Positions 16,912 through 64,000 of a stretch of DNA of 64,000 nucleotides are shown piece after piece. Position 1 is the stretch's first letter, and the number at the start of each line of letters is the position of its first letter. The translations under genes were made by a program, and so were the position numbers. This DNA is from Sipunculus nudus (Eukaryota > Annelida > Sipuncula > Golfingiida > Sipunculidae): NCBI GenBank assembly GCA_026874595.1, contig CM049308.1, forward strand, positions 44,213,327-44,277,326, written 5' to 3'. The notes beneath the pieces are model-generated. The model was not told the DNA's origin and made no database searches. It worked only from the letters and a program-made list of their open reading frames with translations.

Positions 16912-17138
16912 TTTTTAGCTCAGCTGACTATAAGTCATCTGAGCTATAGTCATGGTCCATTGTCGGTCGTCCGTCCGTCTGTCCGTCCGCCTGTCTGTTA
17001 ATGTGGCACATTTTGAAACCGTAAGACCTAGGAATCCAAAATTCAGCATAATGTTGGGATGTCCCTAAGATCTCCTACCAAGCTGAAAACTGGGTCTTTT
17101 CGACTTCTTTCCTTTGAGTAATTAAGGAAAAACCTCAA
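16912..17138 (+). mobile_element. Family A-alpha, 5' part only
   Basis: It begins TTTTTAGCTCAGCTGAC with the 5' hairpin and the (GTCC/GTCT) tract, and runs as far as GGAAAAACCTCAAT. A second, complete A-alpha 5' end starts there in the same orientation. The rest of this copy is not found after the second one ends at 20759. It may be a partial head-to-tail unit or an insertion followed by a deletion. Confidence 0.75.
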
Positions 17139-17775
17139 TTTTTAGCTCAGCTGACTATAAGTCATCTGAGCTATAGTCGGGGTCCATTGTCCGTCGTCCG
17201 TCCATCTGTCTTGCCGTCCGTCCATCCGTAGATGTGGCACGTTTTGAAACCTTAAGACCTAGGAATCCAAAATTCAGCATAATGTTAGATGTCCCCAAGA
17301 TCTCCTACCAAGCCGAAAACTGGGTCTTTGCGACTTCGTTTCTTTGAGAAATTAAGGAAAAACCTCAATTTTTTTATTAAAATCCTATTTTCACTCTTCA
17401 GGACTGCCTAATATCAAAACCACTCATCTGTTTTTCCTCATATTTACCAGAAATATTCCTCTATATAGTTCCTATGTACATGCCAGAAATTAAGTCTGTA
17501 TAGTATAAATTCTTTAAGTTATGGGCCCAAACATAATGGACTTTGTAAAAAATCAGGAAAAATAATAACTCACTGAACATGAAAAATTTTGAAACTAGAG
17601 CCTCTTTTGTCAAGTATATAGCTATGTTTAATTAAGATTCAATTGTTTACCCAAAATTAGATCTGAATTTTGTAAATTTTTTAAGTTATTAGCATAAAAA
17701 AAAAATCAGTATCTTAAATTTTGCCCAACTTTGACCATGGCACGTTTTTTTCCTGTAAGCACCATTGATTTAATT

Positions 17776-17805
17776 GTATCCGCCAAAACAGAGTTTTGCG
17801 GATAC
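17776..17805 (+). other. 5' terminal hairpin of family D
   Basis: The arms GTATCCGC and GCGGATAC continue as AAAAC/GTTTT around AGA, with one unpaired base. The same GTATCCGCC reappears inverted near the 3' end, so one short word is used for the hairpin and for the subterminal inverted repeat. Confidence 0.85.
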
Positions 17806-19469
17806 TATGTTTTCAGCTGCACGCCGCCGCCGCCGCGGCATAGGTGTCCGGAGAACTCCTCTGTAACCGCTGGGCGGAATTTTACGAAACCTGGGATTAT
17901 GTTCGGGTCACATGTGAACTGCTGCGCCCCGATTTTGTTTTGACCTCTGACCTTTCCTCTGCGCTCTGCGTCCGTTTGTGCGTCTGTTTCCACACATAAA
18001 CCCACATATCTCGGGAACCGTTTGACCGATCAGGAAAATTTTTTTACACAAATGTAGCCCTTGGAGAGCTTTACAACATACACAAAAAATGGTGGCGCCA
18101 CCTGCAACCATGTTAGCACAGTGTCCATCTGTTCATCTGCCTTGGGTTAAAATCACTCATATCTCTGCAGTGACTAGACTAATTCACCTGAAATTCGGCA
18201 TGCGTAAACATCCTGGATAGCTTTTCTGATTTTATGACAGGTGGCGCCACCTACATTCACGTTTACGCTGCAGACATCCAAGCTCATATCTCAGGAACTG
18301 TTTGACCGATCAGGAAAATTTTTTGGCACAAATGTAGCCCTTGGAGAGCTTTATAACATACACAAAAAATAGTGGCGCCACCTGCAACCATGTTTGCACA
18401 GTGTCCATCTGTTGGTCTGCCTTGGGTTAAAATCACTCATATCTGTGCAGTGACTTGACTAATTCACCTGAAATTCGGCATGCGTACACATCCTGGATAG
18501 CTTTTCTGATTTTATGACAGGTGGCGCCACCTACATTCACGTTTACGCTGCGGACATCCAAGCTCATATCTCGGGAACTGTTTGACCGATCAGAAAATTT
18601 TTTTTGCACAAATATAGCCCTTGGAGAGCTTTATAACATACACAAAAAATGGTGGCGCCACCTGCAACCATGTTTGCACAGTGTCCATCTGTTCGTCTGC
18701 CTTAGGTTAAAATCACTCATATCTCTGAAGTGACTAGACTAATTCACCTGAAATTCTGCATGCGTAAACATCCTGGATAGCTTTTCTGATTTTATGACAG
18801 GTGGCGCCACCTACATTCATGTTTACACTGCAGACATCCAAGCTCATATCTCGGGAACTGTTTGACCGATTGGGCCAAAATTTTGCATGTGTATAGATCT
18901 CACATAGCTCTTCATCATACGCAAAACTGGTGGCGCCACCTGCAGCCATTTTTGCACAGCTCCTGTCTGTTTGTCTGCCATGGGATAAAATCACTCATAT
19001 CTCGGCAGTGGTTTGACATATCTGCCTAAAATTTTGCAGGTTTATACATCCCCGACAGCTCTCTTGATTTTATGACAGGTGGCGCCACCTGCATTCTAGT
19101 TTATGCAGCAGACATCCAAGCTCATATCTTGGGAACCGTTTGACCGATTGGGCCAAAGTTTTGCATGTGTATAGTTCTCACATAGCTCTTTATTATATGC
19201 AAAACTGGTGGCGTCACCTGCAACCATTTTTGCTCAGCGTCCATCTGTTTGTCTGCCACGGGCTAAAATCACTCATATACATGTAGTGGTTTGACTTATC
19301 TGCCTTAAATTTTGCATATGTATACAACTTGGACGGCTTTCTGGATTTTGTGGTATGGGGGGCAACCTACATACACAATTTGGCTGCAGACTTCCATGCT
19401 AATATGCAACACTCAATTTTCCCTTGCCACTCAATCCATGCCTCACTTCACCTGTTCCACTCTGATTTA

Positions 19470-19511
19470 GGCGGATACACGTAGTCGCTTGTCGACTACC
19501 CTTATTCTAGT
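19470..19511 (+). other. 3' terminal signal of family D
   Basis: GGCGGATACA is the reverse complement of the 5' end. A hairpin follows, with arms GTAGTCG and CGACTAC and loop CTTGT. After seven bases comes CTAG, then the T-run of the host. CTAG fits the CTRR rule of Helitron ends. Confidence 0.8.
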
Positions 19512-19754
19512 TTTCACAGCATGTAAACAAAAATATTAAGTTTGTCTAATTCTGAAATTTGAAAATAAAAGCTTGAAAATTAAGCTAGTTATTGATTTTT
19601 TTTTCTGTAGTCACTTGCTTTGATTACAGATGCAGGGTCCCACTCCAGGTCACTGGAAGTCAGCTATGCCAGGGTTTCTGATTTGTTACAGTCACTGGGG
19701 GAGATCCCCTGCTGGGACAGGTGTACAGTTATTCTCATATCACCACCCCAATCA

Positions 19755-19768
19755 CCCCCCCCCCCCCC
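19755..19768 (+). repeat. Poly-C tract, C14
   Basis: This homopolymer follows the block GGGAGATCCCCTGCTG in A-alpha. The homologous tracts elsewhere are C14 (41039), C19 (45998), C14 (50268) and C17 (54663), so the tract is a conserved, length-variable part of the element. Confidence 0.85.
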
Positions 19769-21082
19769 AAACCCAACCCACCAAGTGTTATGCAGTAATT
19801 GTTATTGTTTTCACTGTATCTCCTTAATTGTAATGCTGTTTCCTCTCTGATATGCAAAAACTTTCCTTGAAAAAGTAATTCAAGGTGTAATCCAGAAGAT
19901 GCAATGTTGCATTTTTAAAGAAATCAATTTTCTTTTAAATGATTTTATCAAATATAAATGAACCCATCAGTATGCTTAAATTTATAAAATATGAAGCACA
20001 TTATGGATAAATAAAGACACAATTAAAAATTGTGAAATCTAAATCAAGTATTATTTTTAGATATTTTTTGTTGAGCAAATTTAAAAGATATATTTTTGTG
20101 GTAAAAAATAAATAAACATTTGTATGCATGATGTGGTGTTATCTGACAAGATTGAGATTTATGATGATGCAATTTAGAATTATGAATCAACTTTTATATT
20201 CAGATATATTTGGATATATTGGAAATGTATAGAAATATAAACTTAAATTTAAAAAAAAATTGATGTGAATAAAAAAATGAGGATTTAATACAAACATTTG
20301 TTCATTATTTTCCTGCCTCAGCAGAATTTGAGATCAGGCTTTGTTTGCCCTGTTTTATGTTGTTTATTAGTTATATTTCAACTGTATACATTTCATAAAA
20401 AAAATACATATATATTTAATAATATATATTATACAAAAAAATAGATTCAATTGAACAAATGTGCAAACTGCTGAAATATCAACAGTTAATCAAAAAGCCA
20501 ACCAAATGATCATGGTAATAGTACAGACCATTTGTTCACAAACTGCTCACATGCTTCAGTTTCAACATAAGAAACACATGTTGAGGTCACAAAATATTAT
20601 TTGCAACCATTTCTTGCTCATCAATACAAACCAATCATATAAACTAACCATGGCCTTTATTACTTCTTCCTCTTACACCTTATCTCCATTTGTTATTATT
20701 TTAGATTTTTACCTTCAAGGTCAACTTCAGCTGAGCACAGTGACCCATTGGTCCCTTGTTTGGCATCTGGTTGGCTGCTTTTCACATCATACGCACGTTT
20801 TGTTCAGCGGACAATGATCCGCCAACTGGTGGCTAAATATATCATTAATGGTCAAAGCTGACAGCGTGAAAATCAGTCACTTCTTTAGAAGCATAAGATT
20901 TCCGCTGCCTCGGGAGCGTAAGCTAACCTGTGAGCTTATGTGATGGTGTGGCGTCGTCTGTCGTATGTCGTGCGTCGTCTGTACGTTAACCATAGCTATC
21001 TCAAAAATGGCAGGAGCTAGCATCACCAAATTTTTTGTAAATAATCAGTCATCCAAAAAACTATATCAGATTTTGTTTATTT

Positions 21083-21915
21083 TTATGCCCCCGCCACAAA
21101 GTGGCCGGGGCATATAGTTTTACCCATGTCCTTCCTTCCGTCATTCCGAAATGAAACAGTTGTACAGACTTTTTTTTGCAATGCCTGCAGATATTGGCCT
21201 GATTTTTGTCGTGTGGGCAGATAATGACCAGTTACAGATCAAGTTCGCGCTTCGTCCCAGTTGACCTCCTTTTGACCATTTTACGGCTCCTTAACTTAGA
21301 AAATTTCATGAACAATAGAAATTTTCATGACAAATACACATGTACAGACTTTTTTCCCCAATGCCTGCAGATGTTAGCCTGATTTTTGGTGCGTGGGCAG
21401 ATAAAGACCAGTTACAGATTTAGTTCATGTTTTGTCCCAGTTTACCTACTTTTGACCGTTTGACGGTGCCCTAACATAGGAAATAACAGAGAAAATATAA
21501 ATTTTCATGACAAGTGCACATGTATGGACTTTTTTTGCAATGACTGCAGATAGGGCCTGATTTTTGGTGTGTGGGCAGATAATGACTATCTACAGATCAA
21601 GTTCTTGTTTTGTCCCAGTTGACCTACTTTTGACCATTCGACTGCTCCTGAACATAGAAAGTTTCATGAAAAATAGAAATTTTCATAACAAATGCATATG
21701 TACGGACTTTTTTTCCGCAATGCCTGCAGATACCACCCTGATTTTTTATGTGTGGGCAGATAATAACCAGTTACAGATCGAGTTCGCGTTTCGTCCCCGT
21801 TGACCTTCTTTTGACCATACGACACCTCCTGAACTTAAAAATTTTTTCAAAATTTAACAAATGTTTCTAATTTGCCCCAGGCAGGGGCAGTCGTGTCATT
21901 CCGACACATCTAGTT
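21083..21915 (+). mobile_element. Family B element, unit 1 of a head-to-tail trimer
   Basis: The 5' end has the hairpin ATGCCCCCGCCAC/GTGGCCGGGGCAT (21085-21113), then short TTCCGTC repeats, then about four 180-bp core units (CTGCAGATATTGGCCTGATT, GGGCAGATAATGACC, TTCATGACAAAT). The 3' end carries an inverted copy of the 5' word, TGTCATTCCGACA and ATCTAG. It ends exactly where unit 2 begins. A 79-codon frame in the core is shared with unit 2 but not with unit 3 as such. Confidence 0.9.
21085..21113 (+). other. 5' terminal hairpin of family B
   Basis: The arms ATGCCCCCGCCAC and GTGGCCGGGGCAT pair around AAA with a single C-C mismatch. The first eleven bases return inverted as GGCGGGGGCAT near the 3' end of complete copies (23914-23924). 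Confidence 0.85.
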
Positions 21916-22756
21916 TTTATGCCCCCGCCACAAAGTGGCCGGGGCATATAGTTTTACCCATGTCCTTCCTTCCGTCCTTCCGTCATTCCGAAATGAAACA
22001 GTTGTACAGACTTTTTTTTGCAATGCCTGCAGATATTGGCCTGATTTTTGTCGTGTGGGCAGATAATGACCAGTTACAGATCAAGTTCGCGCTTTGTCCC
22101 AGTTGACCTCCTTTTGACCATTTTACGGCTCCTCAACTTAGAAAATTTCATGAACAATAGAAATTTTCATGACAAATACACATGTACAGACTTTTTTCCC
22201 CAATGCCTGCAGATATTAGCCTGATTTTTGGTGCGTGGGCGAATAAAGACCAGTTACAGATTTAGTTCATGTTTTGTCCCAGTTGACCTACTTTTGACCG
22301 TTTGACGGTGCCCTAACATGGGAAATAACAGAGAAAATATAAATTTTCATGACAAGTGCACATGTATGGACTTTTTTTGCAATGACTGCAGATAGGGCCT
22401 GATTTTTGGTGTGTGGGCAGATAATGACTATCTACAGATCAAGTTCTTGTTTTGTCCCAGTTGACCTACTATTGACTATTCGACTGCTCCTGAACATAGA
22501 AAGTTTCATGAAAAATAGAAATTTTCATAACAAATGCATATGTACGGACTTTTTTTCCGCAATGCCTGCAGATACCACCCTGATTTTTTATGTGTGGGCA
22601 GATAATAACCAGTTACAGATCGAGTTCGCGTTTCGTCCCCGTTGACCTTCTTTTGACCATACGACACCTCCTGAACTTAAAAATTTTTTCAAAATTTAAC
22701 AAATGTTTCTAATTTGCCCCAGGCAGGGGCAGTCGTGTCATTCCGACACATCTAGT
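21914..22756 (+). mobile_element. Family B element, unit 2 of a head-to-tail trimer
   Basis: It is nearly identical to unit 1. The main difference is one additional 8-bp step in the TTCCGTCC microsatellite, giving 842 bp against 834 bp, plus scattered substitutions. Both junctions read CATCTAG followed by TTTTTATGCCCCC, with no host DNA between the units. The close identity means unit 1 and unit 2 arose together recently. Confidence 0.9.
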
Positions 22757-23948
22757 TTTTATGCCCCCGCCACAAAGTGGCCGGGGCATATAGTTTTACC
22801 CATGTCCGTCATTCCGTCATTCCGAAATGAAACAGTTGTACGGACTTTTTTTCGCAATGCCTGTAGATATTGGCCTGATTTTTGGTGTGTGGGCAGATAT
22901 AGACCAGTTACAGATCAAGTTCGCATTTCGTCCCGGTTGACCTACTTTTGACGGTTTTACGGCTCCAAAACTTAGAAAATTTCATGAAAAATAGAAATAT
23001 TCATGACATACACATGTACAGACTTTTTTTCGCAATGCCTGCAGATATTGGCCTGAATTTTGGTGTGTGGGCAGATATAGACCAGTTACAGATCGAGTTC
23101 GCGTTTCGTCCTGGTTGACCTACTTTTGACCGTTTTACGGCTCCTGAACATAGAAAATTTCATGAAAAATATGAAATTTCATGACAGATGCACATGTACA
23201 GACTTTTTTCGCAATGCCTGCAGATATTGGCCTAAAGTTTGGTGTGTGGGCAGATATGGACCAGTTACAAATCGAGTTCGCGTTTCGTCACAGTTGACCT
23301 ACTTTTGACCGTTTTACGGCTCCTGAACATAAAAAATTTCATGAAAAATATGAAATTTCATGACAAATACACATGTACAGACTTTTTTTTCGCAATGCCT
23401 GCAGATATTGGCCTAATTTTTGGTGTGTGGGCAGATATAGACCAGTTACAGATCGAGTTCGCGTTTCGTCCCAGTTGACCTACTTTTGACTGTTTTACGG
23501 CTCCTGAACATAGAAAATTTCATGTAAAATATATATTTTCATGACAAATACACTTGTACAGACTTTTCTTCACAATACCTGCAGTTATTGGCCTGATTTT
23601 TGGTGTGTGGGCAGATATAGACCAGTTACAGATCGAGTTTGCGTTTCATCCCGGTTGACCTACTTTTGATTGTTTTACGGATCCTAAACATAGAAAATTT
23701 CATGAAAGACAGAAATTTTTATGGAAAATGCACATGTATGGACTTTATTTCACAATGCCTGCATATACTGCCATGATTTTTGGTGTGTTGCTTGATAATG
23801 ACCGGTTACAGATCAAGTTTGCATTTTGCCCTTGTTTACCTACTTTTGACCATACGACACCTCCTGAACTTAAAAAATTTTCCAAATTTTACCAATGTTT
23901 CTAATTTGCCCAAGGCGGGGGCATTCTTGTCGTTCCGACACATCTAGT
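22756..23948 (+). mobile_element. Family B element, unit 3 of a head-to-tail trimer
   Basis: It is longer (about 1.19 kb) and more diverged than units 1 and 2, with about six core units. GCAGATATTGG or its variants occur at 23041, 23220, 23401, 23581 and 23761, a strict 180-bp period. The 3' end has GGCGGGGGCAT, a TGTCGTTCCGACA hairpin and CATCTAG plus T. The C host then resumes at TTTCTAACTGC; the unoccupied C site is at about 2580 and 59840. Confidence 0.9.
23914..23948 (+). other. 3' terminal signal of family B
   Basis: GGCGGGGGCAT (inverted 5' end) is followed by the hairpin TGTCG-TTC-CGACA (23928-23940), CAT, and CTAG plus T. The layout is the same as in family D. Confidence 0.8.
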
Positions 23949-26063
23949 TTCTAACTGCATTTTCTTAGATTTTATCAGGAAAAAGCTAAAAAAGCTTTAA
24001 AAATCTTCTTCCGCGAAACTGTCCAGCCAGATTGTCCAATATTTCACAGAAATGATCCCTGGAACAATCTTTCTCAAGTTTGATCAAATGGTTCCAGTTC
24101 AGAGATTTTTTGGCTGAGTTACAGGAGGTTGAACTTTGTTAACTGTGCATAAAAGCATATTAAATTATAAATCTCAGAAACAGCTGTAGCTATCATCGCC
24201 AAATTTTATGCCAATGTTGGTCACATAGGTCATATCAGAAATTGAGGTATTGGTGGTGCCACCTGCATCGGCCTTTTGTGTACAGGGTCATCAGTGCCTG
24301 TATCAGACTGAGGGCTACAAAAAACTTCTTCTCTGAAACCAACTGGCCAAAATGTTTAATATCGCACATAAATGATCCTAAGGTAGTGATTTCTGAAGTT
24401 TGTTCAAATGGTCTCTTTTCAGTGACTTTTGCCTAAGTTATGGGAAGCTGAATTTAGTCATATGCCATAACAGCCCATTTTAGCTCAGTGGCTACAAAGA
24501 TCTTCTTCTCAAAAACACTAGGCCAAATTCTTAAATCTCAGACATTATTTATCCTCAGATGTTGATAATTCAAGTTTGTTCAAATGGTTCTGGTTCAGTG
24601 CTTTTTGGCTGAGTTACGGGAAGCTGAACTTAGCCAGTTTGCTGTATCATCCCATATGAGTTATAAACCGGCGAAACGTTTTTCAACTGATGCCACTGAG
24701 CCAGTTTGTTAAATATTTTACAAGAATAATTCCTACAATAATTCTTATAATAATTGTCATTAATGGTTCCACATGAATGATTTTTGGCTGAATTATGGAG
24801 ATTAAATTGAGTCATTTTACCATATATGTTAGCTGTGTGATGTTGTTACATCTAGCCTGGCACCAGTTTATCAGCATCTATTACATCATGCCATTAGACA
24901 TTTAGATTTCAGGTTATCTTTGATTAATATTGACAAGAAAGTTTTTTTAAAAGCTTTTAAAAAATTTATATTTATGATTTAAGTTATTCATCATACAGGC
25001 AATGTTACAATCATGGATATTCAGCTCTCTGTGGCTATATAAAGACAACTGTACTTGGACTATAAATTATTGGTATCCCTACTCAACTTAATTCAAGAAT
25101 TTGCCATCAATGAGATATATCTGTATTTTAATTTTGCATTCAGTATGCATCTGGAATAATTTTACATATATTCCTGAATTCTTTTTATCAAACCTGTGAG
25201 CTAATGCGATGATGTGGCGTCGTCCGGCATCTGTCGTCCGTCGTCTGTACATTAACCCATACTATCTTGAAAACGGCAAGAGTAAGCATCATGAAATTTA
25301 ATGCAAAAAATTAGTCATAAAAAAAACTGTATCAGATTTTGCTTATTTTTTGGCTAACTGCATTTTCTTAGATTTTATTGGGAAAAAGATAAAAAAACTT
25401 TAAAAATCTTCTCCAAATCTGTTCAGCCAAATTGTCCAATATTTCACAGAAATGATTCCTTGAACAATCTTTCTCAAGTTTGTTCAAATGGTTTAAGTAC
25501 GATGATTTTTGGCCGAGTTACAGGAAGTTGAACTTAGTCATCTGTCCAAAAAAGCATAGTTAAATTACAATCTCAGAAGCGGCTGGAGCTATCATCACCA
25601 AGTTTTATGCCAATGTTGGTCACATGAGTCATATCTGAAATTGAGGTATTGGTGGCGCCATCTGCATCGGCCTTTTTTTACGGGGGTCATCAGTGCCTGT
25701 ATCATACTGACAGATACAAAAAACTTCTTCTCTGAAACCATATGGCCAAATTGTTTAATATCGCACAGAAATGATTCTAGGGTAGTGCTTTCTGAAATTT
25801 GTTCAAATGGTCTCAGTTCAGTGACTTTTGGCTGAGTTATGGGAAGCTGAATTTAGTCATATGCCATAACATCCCCTTTTAGCTAAGTGGCTTCAAAGAT
25901 CTTCTTCTCAAAAACCACTGGGCTAAATTCTTAAATCTCACACATTAATTATCCTTAGATGTTGATAATTCCAGTTTGTTCAAATGGTTTTGGTTCAGTG
26001 ATGTTTGGCTGAGTTTAATTTAGCTATTTTGCTGTATTTTCCCATATGAGTTATAAACCTGTA

Positions 26064-26403
26064 AGGCCAAAATATAAAAAAAAGGTATGGTTCTCAGGCA
26101 CTTTTTTTCATAAATCAATGCGGGCGGGCACTTTTTTTATTTTAAATTTTTTGGTATGTTTCGATAAAAATGTCAAATGATAAAGGAAAAGCATGAAAAT
26201 AACAGTTTTATTTTGCTAAATAAGTACAAGCACTACAAAACAAAGGAAATTGTATGGTTTTATCTTCTTGGAAGAAATGTCAGAGCGGCAGCAGCTCAAA
26301 ATTGGAAAGTTTTTATTGAAAATCAAAATAAAAATGTTTGATGCGGGGGTTTAAAATTGATGCGGGCGGTGCCTGAGAACCATACCTTTAATTTTTTTTG
26401 GCC
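26064..26403. mobile_element. MITE with TA target duplication (340 bp)
   Basis: The left arm has GGCCAAAATATAAAAAAAAG and GGTATGGTTCTCAGGCAC. The right arm has GTGCCTGAGAACCATACC and TTTTTTTTGGCC as its reverse complement. TA flanks both sides (26062-26063, 26404-26405). Related C copies at 10195 and 33066 read straight through ATAAACCTGCAAAAC or similar, confirming a clean insertion. Both arms continue with GCGGGCGG-type sequence. A TA duplication fits Tc1/mariner-like or related transposases. There is no coding capacity. Confidence 0.85.
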
Positions 26404-28362
26404 TAAAACGTTTTTGACTGAGGCCACTGAGGCAAATTTGTTTAATATTTTACAAGAATAATCCCCTGAATAATTCTTATAATAATTGTCTTTAATAGTT
26501 CCTAAGAATGAATTTTGGCTGAATTATAAATATTGAATCGAGTCATTTTACCATATATGTAAGCTGTGCCAAGCAGATACATCTAGCCTGGCACCTGTTT
26601 ATCAGCATCCCTTACATCATGCCTCTAGACATTTAGATTTCAGGTTATCAATGGTTCATATTGACAAGAATGTTTTTTAAAAGCTTCTAAAAAATGTAGA
26701 TTTATGATTTTAGATATTCCTCATGCCAGGCAATGTTTACAATCACAGGTTTACAGCTCTCTGTAGGTATATAAAGACGGCTGTACATGGATTATAAATA
26801 ATAGGTATCCATACTCAACTTAATTCAAGATTTTGCCATCAGTGAGATGTATCTGTATTATAATTTTGCATTCAATATGCATCTGTAGTAATTTTTCGCA
26901 AACCTGTGAGCTAATGCAATGGTGTGGGGGCGTCACCCGCTGTACGTTAACCCATACCATTTAAAAAACGACTGGAGCTAGCATCATGAAATTTAATGCC
27001 AAAAATTAGCTATCTGAAAAACTCTGCATTTTCTTAGATTTTATGGAGAAAAAGGTAAAAAACCTTTAAAAATCTTGGCCCCCGAAATGGTAAAGCCAGA
27101 TTGTTCAGTATTTCAGAGAAATAATCTTTTATACCATCTCTCTCAAATTTGTTTGAATGGTTGAAGTTCGGAGATTTTTGGCCTGTTACAGGAAGTTGAA
27201 CTTAGTCATCTGTCAAAAAAAAATACTAAAATGACAGTCTCAGAAGTGGCCAGAGCTATCATCACCAAATTTTATGCCAGTGTTGGTCACATGAGTCACA
27301 TATGAAATTCAGGTATTGGTGGCGCCACCTGCATTGGCCTGTTTTTGTACAGGGGTCATTTGTTGTCTGTACATTAACCTATAATTTCTCAGGAATAGCA
27401 GGAGCTGCCATCCCCAGATTTTATGCAATAATCTGTCACATATCAAATGTTGTGGGATTCAGCTTATTTTTTTGCTATATGCGTTTACTTAGATTTTATA
27501 GGGAAAAAGCAGAAAAACCTTTAAAGTCTTCTTCTTGTATACGGTCCAGCCAAATTGTTCAATATTTTGCAGAAATGATCCCAGAGGCAAGCCCTCTCAA
27601 GTTTGTTCAAATGATTTGCATTTGATGAATTTTAGTGGAGTTACATAAATTTGAACAGTCATTTGGCCAAGTAAGCATACTGACATAGTAATCTCAGAAA
27701 TGACAGAAGCTAGCATTACCAAGTATTGTGCAAATGTTGGTCACATGACTCATATTTGAAGTTGCAGATTTTGTGGTGCCACCTACATTGACCAGTTTTT
27801 TATGGGCAAAAACCTCATAATTTTAGCCGCTTTTAGCTTAAAATGTTTATGATAAAACTGTCAAGTTGAATCGTTCAATTTTTCAAAAGAATTATCCTCG
27901 GACATGTTCTTTCAATCATATCAGAAAAGCTTATGTTGGTCTTATGGCTATATAATGTCTTTCAAACTGAGGACTGCAAAACTGTTCTTTTACAAAATTA
28001 TTGTTTCAATTATTACTTCTGTAACATTGCACAAAAATTATTCTTAGGTGGCCTTTGTTCAAGTTTACTTGAATGATTTTTGGCAGAATTATTGGACCTT
28101 TAACAATGAAAGAACTGCATCTTTTACTATTCTAGATATTTTGATAAAAAGTTTATGAATATGTCAGCTTGAAAAAAAAAAAACATTTTAGCCAAAGTCT
28201 TTCAGTATGTGTTAACTGATTCACCAACACTGCAAGATTGTGTCTGTATCTTTAAATAGGTTGAGAAACTGCCAACTGTTTCAGATTTGGCAACAGATTG
28301 AGAGTTCATTCAGTGCAGCCAGATTTAGGTCAAGAGTTCAATCAGTGCAGACAAGCACAAGG

Positions 28363-28428
28363 CATGTGATCACCTCATGGGTGACATGTGATCACCTCAT
28401 GGGCACCATGTGATCACCTCATTGGTTT
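28363..28428 (+). repeat. 22-bp TGATCA minisatellite, 3 units
   Basis: Units start at 28363, 28385 and 28407. This is the C copy 2 counterpart of the five-unit array at 6163-6272. The two differ only in unit number and minor substitutions. Confidence 0.8.
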
Positions 28429-29233
28429 CATGCCCCTCGGGGCATACCACCTGCATGAGCTTATGCAATGGTGTGGCAACAGGCTAGAGGTCAGTCTCGA
28501 TCTATTAATAGCTTTGGCAGACTGCCAACTGTATCAGATTAGGCAACAGGTCAAGAGTTCACTCAGTGCAGCCAGGTATGGGTCAGGAGTTCACTCAGTG
28601 CAGTAGCTGCATTCTATTTATAGTATTAGCAGACTGCCCACCGCATCAGATTTGGCACCTAAGTTCAGGCTCGATCTATTTATAGCTTTGGCAGACTGCC
28701 AATTGTGTCAGATTATGCAACAGGTCAAGAGCTCACTCAGTCTAGCCAGGTGCATGTCATGAGTTCACTCGGTGCAGTAGCATGAGCCAGCAAATTTGTC
28801 ACAGTTCACTCAGGGCAACTGCCTTTCTCACCTTAGCCTGGTCAGCCCCATGCATCAGACTCAAGGTAATTTTGATGTATTGGCCTGATATTTTGACCTG
28901 TCTATGTGTCTTTGATGGCTTTCGTGTTCACAAGACAGGTGTCGCCACCTACATTGACTTTTGCACAGTGTATGTGCCTGCTTATTTCTACAGAGGAATT
29001 TGATATATCAGCCTGAAATTGGCATATATGTAAATATGGATTTGCTTTGTAGTATACAAGAATTGTGGTGCCAGCTACAATCATTTTTGTGTTGTGTGCA
29101 CCCATGCCAGAATTTCAGCAGTGATGTTTGTTTAACTGTTTCTTATTCAAAATGTTTTTGTACTTGCATTGTTCATATACATGAGAAGTAATGGTCCAGC
29201 ATTGAAGCATTATACCTAGTGTATTTCCCAATG

Positions 29234-29264
29234 CACAGGTTCGCATTAGGCCTGTAGGCCTTGT
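29234..29264 (+). other. 3' terminal signal of family C
   Basis: CACAGGTTCGC is the exact reverse complement of the 5' word GCGAACCTGTG. The palindromic pair AGGCCT-GT-AGGCCT (29248-29261) overlaps the terminal CTTG, after which the T-run follows. Confidence 0.8.
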
Positions 29265-48352: not shown

Positions 48353-48439
48353 AGATGCAGAATTCCCAGATTATTGGAACCATATCTTTCAACTTTTTGA
48401 ATAATATTGGTTTGCGTTATAAGCGAATTGGGTTTATTA

Positions 48440-54400: not shown

Positions 54401-55394
54401 ACTGGAAGTTGTGAATCTCAGCCCATGATGTCGCAGGTCATGCTTGGCAGCTGAGCGTCATGACCCATGGGTCACTTGTTTAAAATATTAGCAAGAATAA
54501 AAATTGGTACCTTAAATTTTGCCCAACTTTGGCCACGGCACGTTTTTTTCCAGTAAGTACTGTGGATTTAATTTTCACAGCATGTGCACATTAGGATTTA
54601 ATCTGTTAAAATCTGAAATTTGCAGTTAATATCATACCACAGGGAGCCTTTTCCTCTGGCAACCCCCCCCCCCCCCCCCATTCTGTTGACAGACCTGTAC
54701 TATGAACTAGATGAATCTTAAAATTAACATTTTTTTCAGCAATGAGCAGTAACAACAGAGACCCCTCCCCCACCCACCCCTTCAATACACAGGACTTATA
54801 AACAAGATGAGTTCTATAATTTTAATGTTAAATAAATTCTTTTTGATAAGACTTCGACAATTTTGATTGTTTTAAAGAAAAAAAATTGCAGGAATTTAAT
54901 CCTAATATTCAAATGTGATAAAATATTAGGATCTAATGTAAGTGCTTACTGACAAGATTTAAGATATAAGATATAAATACTTTGTAGCATTTCATTCATA
55001 TTTCTTAAAGTTGGCGGGGCCTAGGTGTGAATAACACTGTTATCTTAGTATTAAAATTAGAAATATTGGTCAAACTTTGTAGGAATAAATTTTTTATCTC
55101 ATATGGCTATATATTTAACTTTTGAAAACGTAATTACCTTCACACATTATTTGTTTATGAAATGTTACTTTTATATAACACTTACCGTAGGCCTATTTGT
55201 TCCCTTGGTGCATCACTAAATGGTTTAGCTCATGTCCATTATTCTATCATTTACAGAGTTTCATTTTAGCAGGGCCATTTTCTCATAGCTTTTCTAATGA
55301 TAATATACAAGAAAAGCCAAAAATATAAAAATATTTTGCAGTTACTAATATTTTCCAAAATTCAGCTGTGCGATGTGACCCATGGGTCCCTTGT
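51499..55394 (+). mobile_element. Family A-alpha element, copy 8, with nested A-beta
   Basis: The 5' end is TTTTTAGCTCAGCTGAC with a GTCY tract to 51606. The body runs to 52047 and resumes at 54480 (AAAATATTAGCAAGAATAAAA), exactly continuous with the intact copy at 34050. A C17 tract (54663) and a diverged 3' part lead to CAGCTGTGCGATGTGACCC and CCCTTG plus T. It lies inside G core text. Confidence 0.85.
52048..54479 (+). mobile_element. Family A-beta element, copy 3, complete
   Basis: It runs from TTTTTAGCTCAGCTGACTTTCAG, through a GTCC/GGCC tract, several units with AAGGTCAAAGGTCAAGGTCAC (about 52385, 52540, 52670, 52810) and the blocks CTGGTGACATATGACTCCC and GGTTTTGCAGTTTACC, to CAGCTGAGCGTCATGACCC and CACTTG plus T. 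It is 2.43 kb long and the only complete A-beta in the window, so it defines the subfamily. The insertion site is a T-run in A-alpha. Confidence 0.88.
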
Positions 55395-55520
55395 TGGTGA
55401 AATTCACACAAAATTTTTAATATCTCAGTAAGAGATACATGGAATGATCCAAGAATCAAATTGACCGAAGATCTTGGATAGCTTTGTCTTTTGCAGAAGA
55501 CAGTATGGCCCCTTTTGAAC
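55395..55520 (+). repeat. Core G host sequence, right part
   Basis: AATTCACACAAAATTTTTAA and CCGAAGATCTTGGATAG continue the G unit interrupted at 51498. It gives way to B core text at about 55521. Confidence 0.6.
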
Positions 55521-55898
55521 ATCCAATATTTCATGAAAAATTGGAATTTTCATGATTAATGCACATGTATAGACTTTTTTTAGCAATGCTTTCAGAAATT
55601 AGCCTGATTTTTGGTGTGTGGACAGATTATGACTAGTTACAGATTGAGTTTCTTTTTTTGTCGGCTTGACCTGCATTTGACCATATGACAGCTCCTTAAC
55701 AAAGAAAATTCATGAAAAATAGAAATTTTCATGACAAATGCACATGTACAGTGGGTTTTTTTTTGCAATGCTTGCAGATATTGGCCTAATTTTTGGTGTG
55801 TGGGCGCATAATGATCACTAACAGATCAAGTTTGTGTTTTGTCCCAGTTGACCTTCTTTTGACCATACGACGGCTCCTGCACATTGAAAATTTCATGG
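55521..55898 (+). mobile_element. Family B core fragment, about two units
   Basis: Two 180-bp core units, with TTTCATGAAAAATTGGAATT, GCACATGTATAGAC and TTTTTGGTGTGTGGACAGA, without either B terminus. It is more diverged than the trimer at 21083. It is cut at 55899 by a sequence opening TACCATAAATTTTCGC. Confidence 0.65.
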
Positions 55899-56155
55899 TA
55901 CCATAAATTTTCGCATACATAGAGATATTTGCTCTTAAAAAAATAATCCAGGAATGGAGGGGTCGCCTTATGTTGGGGTCTAAGCCTGACAGTTAAAATT
56001 TTACCCCGACTTTGTCGAACTGTGGACCTGAATGTCTAGTTGTCGCAGATAGGACTTGCCTAATCGCTTATCAGATGTTCATTTCCGGGGATATTGGGTA
56101 CATATTTGGCCCTTTCAGTCATTAAATACTGTGGAAATAGATTTCCATACTATTT
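55899..56155. other. Unassigned; possible TIR element start
   Basis: It opens TACCATAAATTTTCGCATAC, reminiscent of the TACCGTA ends at 443, 8491 and 36479, followed by GGAGGGGTCGCC. No matching right end was found. It is interrupted by A-gamma at 56156. Confidence 0.3.
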
Positions 56156-58898
56156 TTTAGCTCAGCTAAGTCATCTGAGATATAGCGATCACTCTTTTCC
56201 GTCGTCTGTCCAGCCATCCGGCCGTCTGTCCGTTAACAAGGCACAAATCGTAACCGCTGGACCTGGAATCTTCTTACTTTACATCCAGAGAGGCCGTCCA
56301 TGAAAAATCTCCTTGGAAACCTGGAATTAGATCTCTGTTACCCATATCCTTCGAGCTAGGGGGCCCCAAAGTAACCCCCAGAATAGTGAAAAATTTCATA
56401 CAAAAACTTCAATATCTCATTAACTACATACTGATGGTCATGATTTTTGGCATACGTATTGATCTTGAGATGTTCCATCAGTTTCTGCAGACTGGTGGCG
56501 CCATCTGTATTTTTTTATTTTTTACGAATATTTTTCTCTATTTTTGAGACCTTTAAAAATGTGGACATCTATTAACAGGGCACAAATAGTAAAGACTGGA
56601 CCTAGAATCTTCATTCTTGACATTCTGAGAGACCTATGAAAAGTCTCCATGGAAACCAGAAATTAGGCCTTTGTTACCCATATCCTTGGAGCTATGGGGC
56701 CCCAAAGTACCCCCCAGAATAGTGAAAAATTTCATACAAAAACTTCAATATCTGATTAACTACATCACTGATAGTCATGATTTTTGGCATACATATTGAT
56801 CATGAGATGTTCCATCAGTTTCTGCAGACTGGTGGCGCCACCTGTATTTTTTTTTTTTTTTACGAATTTTTTTCTCTATTTTTGAGACCTTTAAAAATGT
56901 GAACATCTGTCAACAGGGCACAAATCGTGAAGAATGGACCTAGAATCTTCATTCTTGACATTCTGAGAGACCTATAAAAAGTCTCCGTGGAAACCAGAAA
57001 TTAGGTCTCTGTTACCCATATCCTTCAAGGTATGGGGCCCAAAAGTACCCCCCAGAATAGTGAAAAATTTCATACAAAAACTTCAATATCTGATTAACTA
57101 CATCACTGATAGTCATGATTTTTGGCATACGTATTGATCATGAGATGTTTCATCAGTTTCTGCAGACTGGTGGCGCCACCTGTATTTTTTTATTTTTTAC
57201 GAATTGTTTTCTCTATTTTTGAGACCTTTAAAAATGTGAACATCTGTTAACAGGGCACAAATCGTAAAGACTGGACCTAGAATCTTCATTCTTGAAATTC
57301 TGAGAGACCTATGAAAAGTCTCCATGGAAACCAGAAATTAGGTCTCTGTTACCCAAATCCTTCGAGCTAGGGGGCCCCAAAGTACCCCCCAGAATAGTGA
57401 AAAATTTCATACAAAAACTTCAATATCTGATTAACTACATCACTGATAGTCATGATTTTTGGCATACGTATTGATCATGAGATGTTTCATCAGTTTCTGC
57501 AGACTGGTGGCGCCACCTGTATTTTTTTATTTTTTACGAATTGTTTTCTCTATTTTTGAGACCTTTAAAAATGTGAACATCTGTTAACAGGGCACAAATC
57601 GTAAAGACTGGACCTAGAATCTTCATTCTTGAAATTCTGAGAGACCTATGAAAAGTCTCCATGGAAACCAGAAATTAGGTCTCTGTTACCCAAATCCTTC
57701 GAGCTAGGGGGCCCCAAAGTACCCCCCAGAATAGTAAAAAATTTCATAAAAGAACTTCAATATCTGATTAACTACATCACTGATGGTCATGAATTTTGGC
57801 ATACATATTGATCATGAGATGTTTCATCAGTTTCTGCAGACTGGTGGCGCCATCTGTATTTTTTTATTTTTTACGAATATTTTTCTCTATTTTTGAGACC
57901 TTTAAAAATGTGGACATCTATTAACAGGGCACAAATCGTAAAGACTGGACCTAGAATCTTCATTCTTGACATTCTGAGAGACCTATGAAAAGTCTCCATG
58001 GAAACCTGAAATTAGGTCTCTGTTACCAATATCCTTTGAGCTATGGCACTCCAAAGTACAGCTCAGAATAATGGAAAATTTGATACAAAAGCTAAAGTAT
58101 CTGAACAATTGATGCGGAGATCACCATACATATTTGTATGGATATTGATCATTAGGTGTTTCACCAGTTTCTGCAGCCTGGTGGCACCACAAGTATTAAA
58201 TTTGTTCGGGCTTTTTTTCGAATTTTTTTTATCTATTTTTGAGACCTTTAAAGATATGAACATCTGTTAACATGGCACAAATCATAACAACTGGACCTAG
58301 AACCTTCATTCTTTACACACAGGGAGACCCATAAAATCCATGGAAACCTGAAATTAGGTCTCTGTTACCCATATCCATTAAGCTGTATGGCTCCAAAATA
58401 CCCCCCAGAATAATGAAAAATTTGATACAAAAACTCCAGTATCTCAATAACTACAACACTGATGCTCATGATTTTTGGCATACATATTGATCATGACATG
58501 TTCCATCAGTTTCAGCAGACTGGGTGTGCCACCTCTATTTTTTTCAAATTTTTACGAATTATTTTCTCGAAGTATCCCTCAGAATAATGGAAAATTTGAT
58601 ACAAAGCTGAAGTATCTGAACAACTTATCCAGAGACCACCATGCTTCTTTGCATGGATATTGACCATTAAGTGTTTTTATTAGTTTCTGCAGACTGGTGG
58701 AGCCATGTGTATTTTTTTTAAAGTTTACAAACTTTTTCTCTATTTTTGAGATATATTAATACAGACACAATCTCAGTCTGTTGGTTAATCTGTTTGATGC
58801 TTCAGTTGAATGGTTGTATACTACCATTCAGATGATAAAATTTCCTTTTGCAGATCTCTTCCCAGTCAGCTGAGCGTCATGACTCATGGGTCACTTGT
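56156..58898 (+). mobile_element. Family A-gamma element, copy 2, complete
   Basis: The 5' end is TTTTTTAGCTCAGCTAAGTC (hairpin partly lost). The core array has GGTGGCGCC at 56494, 56831, 57169, 57506, 57843 and 58180, an almost constant 337-bp period. The 3' text is TTTGAGATATATTAATACAG, and the terminus CAGCTGAGCGTCATGACTC, CACTTG plus T. Units between 57169 and 57843 share the private change CTTGAAATTCTG and are nearly identical, so they amplified most recently. It is the unbroken reference for A-gamma. Confidence 0.9.
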
Positions 58899-59676
58899 TT
58901 TTTTTTAAGTTCAGCCATTTACGCTGTCCTTTTACTTTGGTAATGCGGTATATCAAAATTCATGCGATAAACCTGGATGCTGACAACCAGCACGTGACCC
59001 CGTGTCTAGTTATAATTAACGAGCTTCATTCATGGGTGATTGAGCATGGGTGCTAGAGGCACGAGTATTGCGTAATTAATTCGGGTTTTTCAATGGCATT
59101 GACCTCTGTGTATTTGACATCAAAGTCTGTATAAGAAATGCTCGGCAACAACATTTGATGATTGCACAAGCAAGCAAAGAGCAAATGACTGCGGGCCGCT
59201 ATTTGTGAATGTGAACAGGTGACAATAGGCGGGCGAACTCGGTTGAACTTCAAAGCTATTTTCCCATTGACACAGGTCATGGGTCTTCAGAGCGCAATGG
59301 TCTTATAACTGTTTCTTCTGACAATTAAAATGCTGACAGTTAGCTTGGAATTGTATGCCATGATGATCGCCATGACCCGCATATGACTGTGGTTGCCCAA
59401 ACAGGTCAGACAAGATAAGTGTTCTATTCAGCCAGCGATCGTATCGAGTAGCTGATAAATCCGCAATCTGTTAAGCACTGGGATTTAAATGACAAAACTA
59501 TGAACATATATCATATTTTCATTCACAGGTTATCAATTTTAAACATTAACTAAGATTATTTTATTAGATCCACTGTCAGATAAGCAGAAACAGCAAACTT
59601 GAGCTTGATCGTTGATTCTATTTTCCATTTTTCTTCACGCAAATAGCGTCACCTGACAGGAATATTGTTGACTATT
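58899..59676. other. Unassigned sequence, no gene recognised
   Basis: About 780 bp with normal complexity and no similarity to the families here. The longest frame is 75 codons on the minus strand (59053-59280), with no domain I recognise. It probably continues the host sequence interrupted by A-gamma at 56156. It is one of the few stretches that could be single-copy. Confidence 0.4.
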
Positions 59677-60834
59677 TTTAGTCAACCTGTGAGCTTATGC
59701 GATGGTGCGGCATCCTGTGTCGTGCATCGTACGTCGTCTTTACGTTAACCATAGCTATCTCAAAAATGGCAGGAGCTAGCATCACCAAATTTTTTGCAAA
59801 TAATCAGTCATTCAAAAACTATATGGGGTTTTGTTTATTTTTTCCTAACTGCATTTTCTTAGATTTTATAGGGAAAAAGCTTAAAAAGCTTTAAAAATCT
59901 TCTTCTCAGAAACGGTCCAGCCAATATTTCACAGAAATGATCCCTGGAACAATCTTTCTCAAGTTTATTCAAATGGTTCCAGTTCGGAGATTTTTGTCTG
60001 AGTTACAGGAGGTTGAACTTTGTTAACTGTGCAAAAAAGCATATTAAAATTTAAATCTCAGAAACGGCTGGAGCTATCATCACCAAATTTTATGCCAATG
60101 TTGGTCACATAGGTCATATTTGAAATTGAGGTATTGGTGGGGCCACCTGCATTGGCCTTTTTTGTACGGGTCATCAGTGCCTGTATCACACTGAGGGCTA
60201 CAAAAAACTTCTTCTCTGAAACCATATGGCCAAAATGTTTAATATTGCACAGAAATGATCCTCGGGTAGTGCTTTCTGAAGTTTGTTCAAATGGTCTCTT
60301 TTCAGTGATTTGGCTAAGTTATGGGAAGCTGAATTTAGTCATATGCCATAACAGCCCATTCTAGCTCAGTGGCTACAAAGATCCTCTTCTCAAAAACCAC
60401 TGGGCCAAATTCTTAAATCTTACACATTAATTATCCTCAGATGTTGATAATTCAAGTTTGTTCAAATGGTTCTGGTTCAGTGCTTTTTGGCTGAGTTACG
60501 GGAAGCTGAACTTAGCAAGTTTGCTGTATCTTCCCATATGAGTTATAAACCTAGGAAACGTTTTTCGACTGATGCCACTGAAGCAAGTTTGTTTAATATT
60601 TTACAAGAATAATCCCTACATTAATTCTTATAATAATTGTCATTAATTGTTCCACATGAATGATTTTTGGCTGAATTATGGAGATTGAATTGAGTCATTT
60701 TACCATATATGTTAGCTGTGTTATGCTGTTACATCTAGCCTGGCACCATTTTATCAGCATCTATTACATCATGCCACTAGACATTTAGATTTCAGGTAAT
60801 CTTTGGTTAATATTGACAAGAAAGTTTTTATGCC

Positions 60835-61285
60835 CCTGCCACAAAGTGGCCGGGGTATATAGTTTTACCCATGTCTGTCCTTACGTCCTTTTGTCCTTCC
60901 GAAATCAAACAGTTGTACAGACATTTTTTCGCAAAGCCTGCAGATATTGGCCTGATTTTTGTCGTGTGGGCAGATAATGACCAGTTACCAATCAAGTTCG
61001 CGTTTCATCCCAGTTGACCTACTTTTGACAGTTTTATGGCTCCTAAACATAGAAAATTTCATGAAAAATAGAAATTTTCATGACAAATACACATTTACAG
61101 AATTTTTTCACAATGCCTGCAGATATTGGCCTGAATTTTGGTGTGTGGGCAGATAATGACCAGTTAAAGGTTAAGTTCAAATTTTTTCCCAGTTGACCTA
61201 CTTTTGACCATTTTACAGCCCCTGAACATAGAAATTTCATGAAAAATATGAATTTTCATGACAATACACATGTACAGACTTTTTT
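60835..61285 (+). mobile_element. Family B element, copy 6, 3' truncated
   Basis: The 5' hairpin (ATGCCCCTGCCAC/GTGGCCGGGGTAT), TTACGTCC-like repeats and about two 180-bp core units are present. It ends at ACAGACTTTTTT, where C text (ATTATTGGTATCCCTACGC) resumes. In copy 2 this C text lies about 120 bp beyond the insertion point, so the loss of the B 3' end also removed C sequence. Confidence 0.8.
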
Positions 61286-62236
61286 ATTATTGGTATCCCT
61301 ACGCAACTTAATTTAAGAATTTGCCATCAATGAGAGATATCTGTATTTTAATTTTGCATCAATATGCATCTGTAATAATTTTATATATATTCCTGATTTC
61401 TTTTTTTATAAAAAGTCAGCTGAAAAGCATTTTGTATTGGGAAAATAAACTTTAAAGTTATTTCAAGTAGGGACCACTTTTGTGTTCAGATGGCAGCACT
61501 TGGTTTACCATTGGCAGATTGCCAGTGCCTTGATGTTGGCCATTAGCCAAGATGATGTCAGCTCTATAAATAGTTTTGGCACATTGCCAGGATTGGAAGA
61601 ATTGCAGCCAGGTATAGGTCAAGAGTTCACTCAGTGCAGTAGCTGCATTCTATTTATAGCTTTGGCAGACTGCTCACTGCATCATATTTGGCACCAAAGT
61701 TCAGCCTGAATCTATTTATAGCTTTGGCAGACTGCAAACTGTGTCAGATTATGCAACAGGTAAAGAGTTCACTCAGTGCAGCCAGGTACAGATCAAAAGT
61801 TAACTCAGTCTAGCCAGGTGCAGGTCAAGAGTTCACTCAGTGCAGTAGCTTGAGGCAGCAATCTGTCACAGGTCACTCAGGGGCAACTGGCTTACTCACC
61901 TAAGCCTTGTCAGCCCAGTGCATCAAACTCTGGGGAAGTTTGATGTATGGGACTGATATTTCTACAAGACAGGTGGTGCCACCTACATTGACTTTTGCAG
62001 TGTATGCGCCTGCTTATTACTACAGAGGAATTTGTTACATCAGCCTAAAATAGGGCATGTATATACATATCGGGTAGCTTTGTAGTGTACAAGACTGGTG
62101 GCGCCACCTACAATAATTTTTGCACAGTGTATGTCCCTGCTTATTTCACAGGAGGGGTTTGACATATCAGTCTGACATTGGGCATATTTATATATCTCTT
62201 CGTTGTATATAAGACTGGTGGTGCCAGCTACAATCA

Positions 62237-63340
62237 GCCTAAACAGGGTTTTGCGTATACTATGTTTTCAGTTGGACGCCAACGCTGCAGTCATCGCCGC
62301 ATAGGTTTCTGGAGAACTCCTCCATAACCACTGGGCAGAATGTTTTAAAATTTGGAAATATGGTCGGTCACAGGTGAACTGCTGCCCCCTCAGTTTTGGT
62401 TGACCTCTGAGCTTTCCTCTCTGCCCAGCATCCATTTGTGTGTCTGTTCCCACACATAAACCCACATATCTCAGGAACCGTTTGACCGATTGGGCCAAAA
62501 TGTTGCATGTGTATAGATCTCACAAAGCTCTTCATCATAAGCAAAACTGGTGGTGCCACCTGCAACCATTTATGCACAGCGTCCATTTTGCAGGTTTATA
62601 CATCCTGGCAGCTTTCTCGATTTTATGACAGGTGGCACCACCTATATTCACATTTACTCTGCAGACATCCAAGCTCAAATCTTGGAAACCGTTTGACCGA
62701 TTTGGCAAAAATTTTGCATGTGTATAGATCTCACATAGCTCTTCACCATAGGCAAAAATGTGGCGCCACCTGCAACCATGTATGCACAGCGTCCATCTGT
62801 TTATCTGCCTTGGGATAAAATCACTCATATCTCAGCAGTGGTTTGACTTATCCACCTGAAATTTTGCAGGTTTATACATCCTGGACAGCTCTCTTGAATT
62901 TATGACAGGTGGCGCCACCTACATTCAGGTTTACTCTGCAGACATCCAAGCTCATATCTCGGGAACCATTTGACCAATTGAGCCAAAGTTTTGCATGTGT
63001 ATAGATATCACATGGCTCTTCATCATAGGCAAAACGGTTGGCGCCACCATCAACCACTTAGGCACAGCATCCATCTGTTTATCCGCCTTGGGATAAAATC
63101 ACTCATATCTCAGCAATGGTTTGACTTATCCACATGAAATTTTGTAGATTTATACATCCTAGACAATTTTCTCGTTTTTATGACAGGTGGCATCACCTAC
63201 ATTCACGTTTATGCTGCAGACATCAATGCTAATATGCAACACACCTCACTCTATTCCCCTTGCCACTTAATTCATGCCTCACTTCATCCGTCCCACTCTG
63301 CAGATACACATAGTCCCGTGTCGACTACCCATATTCTAGT
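62237..63340 (+). mobile_element. Family D element, copy 6, 5' end damaged
   Basis: It joins C at CTACAATCA and begins GCCTAAACAGGGTTTTGCG, so the first bases of the 5' hairpin are deleted. Core units have GGTGGCGCCACC at about 62098 in the flanking C and in D near 62908. The 3' end has CAGATACACATAG, GTGTCGACTAC and ATTCTAG plus T. The left flank is that of C copies with D at the first site; the right flank is that of the second sub-type. Confidence 0.75.
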
Positions 63341-63441
63341 TTTGAAATGTCCTAGTCTGAAACTTGCAGGTCCAAAACGTCCATTTTGCTGAAATCATAA
63401 TAACTAAGGTAGATATGCAGGACTTAGAGGATCAATATTAA

Positions 63442-63735
63442 ACTGTATCTCCTTAAGCTGTGTTTCCAAAAAGCCAACTAATGATCATGGTAATAGTCCA
63501 GATCATTTGTTCACAAACTGCTCACATGCTTCAGTTTCAACATTAGGAAATACATGGTCAGGTCACAAAATATTATTTGCAACAATTTCTTGCTCATCAA
63601 TGCAAACCAATCATATAAACCAACCATGGCCTTTATTACCTCTTCCTCTTACACTTTATCTCCATATGATATTATTTTAGATTTTTACCTTCAAGGTCAA
63701 CTTCAGCTGAGCACAGTGACTCATGGGTCCCTTGT
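63442..63735 (+). mobile_element. Family A-alpha 3' end
   Basis: It contains CAACTAATGATCATGGTAAT, CACATGCTTCAGTTTCAAC and CCAACCATGGCCTTTATTAC, closing with CAGCTGAGC, GACTCATGGGTC and CCTTG plus T. All match 41770-42050. Confidence 0.85.
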
Positions 63736-63963
63736 TAATATGTTAATTCCTCTATATATTAACTATGTACATACGAGAAATTAGTTTAATATATTTTTTT
63801 TTCAATTCTTGAAGTAATTGGCCCAAATATAATGCACTTTGTAAAAATTCAGGAAATATATTTACTCCCTTATCTTGAGAATTTCTGAAGCTAGAGACTT
63901 TCTTTCAGGTATATAACTAAACTTAGTCAAGATTCAATTGTATACACAAAATTAGTTCTGAAT
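63736..63963 (+). mobile_element. Family A-alpha interior fragment
   Basis: It contains CTATGTACATACGAGAAATT, TGGCCCAAATATAATGCAC and AAAATTAGTTCTGAATTTTT, which match 34520-34730. It is interrupted at the T-run by a new A 5' end. Confidence 0.7.
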
Positions 63964-64000
63964 TTTTAGCTCAGCTGACTATAAGTCATCTGAGCTATAG
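63964..64000 (+). mobile_element. Family A element, 5' end, cut by the window edge
   Basis: TTTTTAGCTCAGCTGACTAT and the hairpin partner GTCATCTGAGCTATAG are present. The element continues beyond 64000. Confidence 0.85.

Follow-up and report, generated by a model that had tools for sequence, protein, structure and literature searches.

The window analysed here is a 64-kb stretch of the Sipunculus nudus genome (C3:44213327-44277326, on contig CM049308.1, in an assembly of 1.43 Gb and 153 contigs) that holds many copies of four transposable element families, designated A to D. These families are HINEs, non-autonomous passengers of Helentrons, and thus elements of a known kind; the new part is the regional choice of their strand. 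Whatever their family, copies tend to share one orientation over domains of tens of kb to more than 1 Mb, both in the surroundings of the window and along the first 22.9 Mb of contig C1. Because these domains are common to unrelated families, the strand of insertion appears to be chosen regionally and not by local sequence alone.

Orientation domains around the window and on contig C1

The entire window (1..64000) is a single plus-strand domain. Compared with itself, it yields 1780 direct high-scoring segment pairs covering 51,741 of the 64,000 bases, against 7 inverted pairs covering 332 bases. Tolerant patterns for the element termini recover 13/10 (5'/3') ends of family A, 5/4 of B, 8/6 of C and 5/7 of D on the plus strand, and on the minus strand just ten weak matches to the A 5' end (2-3 mismatches), the A word being nearly palindromic. 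The same strand continues outside the window: 16 of 19 pieces sampled from -130 to +140 kb were informative, and all 16 carried plus-strand matches only. Farther out the strands are mixed, with pieces at -200, -400, -1400 and +1400 kb on the minus strand (with 46 plus bases besides at -1400 kb) and pieces at -318, -350, +400 and +900 kb on the plus strand (44 minus bases at -318 kb); the remaining outer flank pieces gave no matches. Elsewhere in the genome, 12 of 20 pieces placed 5 kb from A matches were informative, and all 12, from 9 contigs, agreed in strand with their A match, although in two the matches are short (41 bases in L083 and 140 bases in L072) and some may belong to one nest with the A match.

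Genome-wide, the 3' ends number 6687 for D (up to one mismatch) and, as exact matches, 1847 for B, 3875 for C and 2793 for one subtype of A, with none for the reversed-pattern controls; the matches of each family are nearly balanced between strands. The first 100 perfect 3' ends per family among the matches listed all lie on C1, and 310 of them (A 69, B 43, C 98, D 100) fall between 0 and 22.9 Mb. In this set, pairs of ends from different families agree in strand in 2/3 cases below 1 kb, 10/10 at 1-3 kb, 28/32 at 3-10 kb, 36/40 (90%) at 10-20 kb and 109/133 (82%) at 20-50 kb. Agreement is 144/203 at 50-100 kb, 230/336 (68%) at 100-200 kb, 386/665 at 200-400 kb and 732/1313 at 400-800 kb, then 1067/2218 at 0.8-1.6 Mb and 2311/4340 at 1.6-3.2 Mb. 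In 300 shuffles of the strands the mean agreement was 0.51-0.53, and in all bins between 1 and 800 kb no shuffle reached the observed value.

Other measures on C1 give the same picture. There are 80 strand runs against about 155 expected, and the first 36 ends (0.09-1.08 Mb), in which all four families are represented, are minus without exception. When the first 1.1 Mb is removed, agreement is still 23/27 at 1-10 kb, 26/30 at 10-20 kb, 85/109 at 20-50 kb and 175/277 at 100-200 kb. Each family taken against the other three agrees in 0.82-0.87 of pairs closer than 50 kb, above all 400 circular shifts, while within families, pairs at that distance agree less often for A (18/25) and D (21/30) but more often for B (9/9) and C (27/29). 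A two-state model fitted by grid search gives domains averaging about 200 kb with about 8% exceptions; its 52 segments accommodate 294 of the 310 ends, with a log-likelihood of -164 versus -215. A list of D ends taken by itself is weaker than the four-family data: neighbours agree in 62 of 99 pairs overall and in 9 of 12 below 20 kb.

A short interspersed element (SINE)-like family served as a control. Found at L019:2583-2900, it has tRNA-like A and B boxes and 3313 genome matches (up to one mismatch), and its copies are sometimes dimers about 270 bp apart; 100 places among the matches listed become 86 once dimers are merged. These copies agree in strand with the nearest HINE in 3/4 cases within 20 kb, 9/16 within 50 kb, 13/29 within 100 kb and 21/44 within 200 kb, and with one another in 4/10 pairs below 100 kb. 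Over all SINE-HINE pairs below 100 kb, 15/45 agree, which is under one half. In a smaller SINE list the figure below 100 kb is 10/26, as against 329/421 for cross-family HINE pairs (Fisher p 3e-5, for pairs that are not independent).

Terminal anatomy of the four families and their candidate Helentron partners

A first-pass annotation of the window had proposed that each family begins with a T-run and a short word, repeats that word inverted near its 3' end, and finishes with a small palindrome and CTTG|T or CTAG|T. All of this is found. The eight words are present far above chance, with exact 5'/3' counts on the plus strand of 11/9 for A (using a 9-base 3' word), 3/2 for B, 2/2 for C and 3/4 for D, when 30 first-order Markov random sequences of 64 kb gave 0.00-0.03 per 5' word or full inverse (the 9-base A word excluded). 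Palindromes occur at the 3' ends of all four families, weak as folds (z -0.1 to -2.0), and the finish is CTTG|T in A and C and CTAG|T in B and D. The annotation also placed a 5' hairpin in A, B and D, and folding of one copy per end with DNA parameters agrees with it: the hairpins of 30-31 nt have -10.6 kcal/mol (z -5.6) in A, -13.1 kcal/mol (z -5.1) in B and -10.9 kcal/mol (z -6.0) in D, whereas the folded C copy has none (z +1.0).

The interiors contain tandem arrays with units of 278 bp in D, 337 bp in one A subtype and 180 bp in B, and A carries GTCC runs. A D element at 17773-19510 interrupts an A copy, and its empty site, GATTTAA|TTTT, can be read near 40782 and 45730 in A copies that lack the insertion. 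The D element thus entered a T-run with no target duplication apart from the Ts themselves. This is the sole empty site seen; an A insertion inside a 337-bp repeat array resembles it, and the remaining insertions are judged from their flanks. Together with the terminal anatomy and the Rep-helicase genes followed by A- or B-type 3' ends described below, this upholds the annotation's view of the families as Helentron passengers of the HINE type. The annotation's account needs three qualifications: the same families also occur left of 16912, C and D are in places partly composite, and the common orientation of all the elements had gone unmentioned in it.

A profile search of the genome with PF14214 (Helitron_like_N) gave at least 143 matches, 150 of 195 candidates having been scored. 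The surroundings of 28 of these loci were examined, using pieces of 10 kb for 8 of them and, for the other 20, pieces of 3 kb lying 4.2-7.2 kb past the match. An A-type 3' end lies downstream in the sense direction in 14 of the 28 (L004, L005, L008, L011-L014, L016, L018, L020, L021, L026, L028 and, partially, L027), at 4.4-5.5 kb from the Rep match in 13 and at 6.3 kb in L018; L009, with a weak sense A end and a stronger antisense one, was left out of the count. L005, L008 and L016 are 96-98% identical where aligned, and their homology breaks off directly after CTTG plus one or two Ts; this locates the A-type 3' end of the autonomous copies. L005 encodes a protein of 2298 amino acids with PF14214 and PF05970 (PIF1) above cut-off, and a C-terminal endonuclease, PF03372, below it (20.6 of 24.5 bits); in its close relative L006 the endonuclease PF14529 is above cut-off. 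PF23343 (REP_ORF2-G2P) matches L005 below cut-off. L005 and L008 also carry a D 5' end at an identical internal place and in identical orientation. In addition, a Herpes_teg_N-like domain (PF04843) lies in the N-terminal part of the L005 and L006 proteins, above cut-off with E-values of 1.8e-11 and 1.4e-7, respectively.

A single locus, L022, has a B-type 3' end downstream of its Rep match. Its reading frames are broken, and the sequence ahead of the 3' end is related to the 180-bp B unit (score 73, against a maximum of 42 in 300 shuffles). No B 5' end was found between the Rep match and the 3' end, so that a nested B element is unlikely there; nor was one found within 3.5 kb upstream of the Rep match. 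Families A and B would each have a cognate Helentron of their own, the match concerning the 3' ends only. No C or D 3' end was found downstream of the Rep match in the 28 loci examined of 143, and cognate partners for C and D would presumably exist as well. For the search suggested by the annotation, for an autonomous Helentron with matching ends, the outcome is a matching 3' end for A in 14 and for B in 1 of the 28 loci, and none for C or D. Towards the 5' side, the homology of L005 and L008 extends beyond the upstream limit of the fetched DNA. An A-like word, AGCTCACCTG, in L132 and L131 was considered as the autonomous 5' end and rejected because the homology runs on past it.

A Rep tree was built from 9 proteins, including 3 of the 14 with A-type ends; two rows cover less than half of the alignment, and 15 stops in L007 were entered as X. 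The A-end proteins L004, L005 and L008 group with L006, on which no A to D end was seen. The B-end protein L022 falls with L001, L002, L003 and L007 on a long branch; as such joins may be false, its placement is unsure. A-type and B-type ends thus lie behind very divergent Reps, which does not support the annotation's further proposal of a single machinery reading structure rather than sequence.

Arrangement of elements in the window

All elements described here are on the plus strand. The family A element at 17139..20758 (5' T-run, word at 17144, 3' CTTG at about 20758) is the one interrupted by the D element at 17773..19510. Another A 5' end lies upstream of it at 16912-16917, and the two 5' ends, at 16912 and 17139 and 227 bp apart, resemble the double 5' termini that passages on Fusarium Helitrons attribute to self-insertion (PMC5148889). 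Three head-to-tail B elements follow at 21080..23947, with 5' words at 21085, 21919 and 22761 and ends in CTAG|T. A probable C element at 26894..29263 (5' word at about 26898, 3' CTTG|T at 29263) and a probable B element at 32090..37889 (5' word at 32095, 3' word at 37856) are each paired by order alone; inside the latter, in the same orientation, are a C 5' end at 32226 and an A element at 33512-36137.

An A-type 5' end with 337-bp tandem repeats begins the region 38210..45072, which is interrupted by an A element at 40151-42049 and contains two D 5' ends, at 43060 and 43902, followed by a D 3' end at 45032-45072. The two D 5' ends belong to an 842-bp duplication; blocks of 845 bp at 42640 and 43482 are 99.8% identical. 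A full-length A element at 45090..47005 is 95.6% identical to the one at 40151-42049. At 47138..47184 an A 3' end (CTTG|TTT) is followed directly by an A 5' end, forming a head-to-tail junction. Farther on, 51500..55394 has A 5' ends at 51503 and 52052 and then A 3' ends at 54448 and 55363, all in a single orientation, and the A-type element at 56156..58897 contains 337-bp tandem repeats and has its 3' word at 58867.

In four places a D 3' end stands 182-204 bp ahead of a C 3' end, which is why C and D are there regarded as partly one composite, C[D]. Two of these are in 9597..13459, where D 3' ends at 9597 and 13226 are followed 183 and 204 bp later by C 3' ends at 9780 and 13430; the others have D/C 3' ends at 31481/31685 and 49505/49687. 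The composite seems to have spread as a single unit.

The sequence GGTGGCGCCACC has 29 exact copies in the window. As the palindrome GGTGGCGCCACC(TG) it recurs in the tandem units of D, in those of the 337-bp A subtype and in those of a repeat family in L053 and L080 (with a mismatch in one of the latter copies), the remaining unit sequence being different in each. It could possibly be a protein site that these repeats have in common, or a feature connected with replication. Two minisatellites, at 4048-4516 and 5636-5866, have units of 23 bp and 63 bp, both containing CCGCAGCCTTC, and the first overlaps the window's only frames of at least 150 codons. Rfam and tRNA scans of the window gave no matches.

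Tandem sequences were also met outside the window. A 129-bp satellite occurs on two chromosomes, in L057-L060 (C9:50.00-50.04 Mb) and in L038 and L096 (C3:43.57-43.61 Mb); its units match at 98% in L057, and the C3 copy, about 0.6 Mb from the window, has several PF14214 matches near it. It is perhaps centromeric. L125 (C7) and L127 (C9), each 150 kb from a right end, share a tandem sequence (88% over 801 bp) that is perhaps subtelomeric.

Replication forks as a proposed cause of the choice of strand, and other explanations

On balance we lean towards a combined reading in which A to D are HINEs, A and B have separate cognate Helentrons, insertion is into T-runs, the strand is chosen regionally and the cause of that choice is coupled to replication forks. 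In this proposal, a fork would leave T-rich DNA single-stranded on one of its two parental strands, Rep would join the transposon strand to it, and the HINE would enter a T-run without target duplication. The exposed strand would probably be the lagging-strand template, as in the bacterial IS608/IS200-IS605 elements, which use an HUH enzyme. According to passages of PMC5371812, the lagging-strand template is the target of IS608, and across its family the orientation of elements follows the direction of replication. The likeness is limited in that those elements are bacterial and move by single-strand peel and paste, whereas eukaryotic Helentrons are involved here and their link with replication is inferred. 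If Rep acts on one parental fork strand, the orientation of an element would record the direction of the germline fork. The wider claim, that animal Helentron-type transposons enter one parental fork strand only and that HINE strands make up a fossil map of germline replication at about 100-kb resolution, we put forward more tentatively, as having a little less than an even chance.

A first alternative is that nesting reinforces itself, T-rich HINEs receiving new copies in their own orientation so that a cluster stays one-way. The T-run target, the direct A-A and B-B tandem junctions and the net excess of T on the plus strand all fit this view. However, the window has 869 T-runs of at least four bases and 617 A-runs, so that target availability predicts about 58% plus insertions rather than 100%; on this count we rejected T-run polarity as the sole cause of the single orientation. 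Unrelated families, moreover, still agree at 50-200 kb, beyond single nests, and we regard self-reinforcing nesting as improbable. Insertion coupled to transcription, in which the exposed strand of long transcription units would fix orientation, likewise predicts strand-specific domains independent of family, and it seems about equally unlikely. Against it, several domains of the two-state model are 0.5-1.6 Mb long and hold many elements; this exceeds ordinary gene length, and the 64-kb window has no stop-to-stop frame longer than 217 codons.

Rather less probable still is that segmental duplication, recombination or assembly effects have produced same-orientation stretches without any insertion bias. 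The 99.8% duplication at 42640/43482 is an instance of such a process, contig-orientation errors in scaffolds are possible, and the block 12036-13460 versus 30325-31715 crosses a D end into a C end, though as the C[D] composite would lead one to expect. The other blocks of at least 700 bp in the window are only 73-96% identical, and those compared by eye otherwise follow element borders; for the window, these identities led us to reject recent segmental duplication as the main cause. The SINE-like control on the same contig is without coherence. Purging of inverted repeats is insufficient too, because pairs from unrelated families are not mutual inverted repeats, and cross-family coherence is about equal to same-family coherence. 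Finally, a single transposase reading hairpin structure and moving all four families, as the first-pass annotation had envisaged, would suit the common end layout and the common orientation domains, but is very unlikely given the divergent Reps behind A-type and B-type ends and the folded C copy without a 5' hairpin.

Several observations weigh against strand choice at forks, or against the domains on which it is built. The SINE-like control is small, and past 24 Mb it was set against HINEs of A and B alone, which makes it thin. Coherence is not found everywhere: leaving aside the end of the element itself, the neighbourhoods of the 28 Rep loci have window-type repeats in sense in 7 (L009, L010, L015, L016, L021, L022, L026) and in antisense in 5 (L009, L010, L017, L018, L020). 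At a control site at C1:20.0 Mb two pieces 24 kb apart disagree in strand; among the other control sites, C7:48.4 Mb has two agreeing pieces, one on C5 has a single informative piece and two have none. Adjacent autonomous PF14214 matches (130 of 143 typed, 13 split fragments left out) agree in 8/11 pairs below 50 kb, 2/4 at 50-100 kb and 2/6 at 100-200 kb, pairs too few to test the strand.

Other such points concern replication more directly. Chromosome ends were predicted to be minus on the left and plus on the right, and of the 5 informative pieces among 20, 2 were as predicted, which does not support the fork model; the left end of C1 fits, and is the case that prompted the test. In non-repeat DNA oriented by the local elements, T exceeds A slightly (0.02-0.05) and C equals or exceeds G (0.00 to -0.10). 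An excess of C over G is unexpected for a leading-like strand, per mammalian data. The strand profile expected on C1, with a sharp rise and a slow fall, is not significant (null fraction 0.05-0.16), and some of the orientation flips could be assembly inversions. Work on Helraiser reports intermediates that are double-stranded circles (PMC5876387).

Among known systems, the closest are Cg_HINE of the Pacific oyster and the bivalve Pearl elements. As described in passages of PMC7492417, these have a 5' subterminal inverted repeat (subTIR) with an adjacent inverted repeat, a microsatellite and a tandem-repeat core, a 3' subTIR with a palindrome, and a T-rich target without duplication, and the 11 Cg_HINE elements of one genome include some unrelated in sequence. 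That paper differs in reporting both integration orientations for Cg_HINE, with no mention of orientation domains in its section on insertion sites, and its passages on these elements give no matching autonomous Helentron (PMC7492417). Insect DINE-1/HINE elements and Helentrons, in the corresponding passages of PMC4067079, share the subTIRs, the 5' inverted repeat, the 3' stem-loop, insertion at TT and a Rep-helicase-endonuclease partner; there the HINEs are deletion derivatives 84-99.9% identical to their partner, whereas the matches to partners seen here are limited to the 3' part.

HINEs as such, HINE families of unrelated sequence and the nesting of Helitrons are thus already known. A search that was thin on subscription literature brought up no account of Helitrons or Helentrons forming orientation domains, nor of a link with fork direction in eukaryotes. 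To our knowledge, the way in which Helitrons and Helentrons choose and enter their targets is unsettled. If fork direction is the cause of the regional choice of strand, rolling-circle transposition in eukaryotes would be tied to replication, as it is in bacteria, and the assemblies of HINE-rich animals would be maps of germline fork direction.

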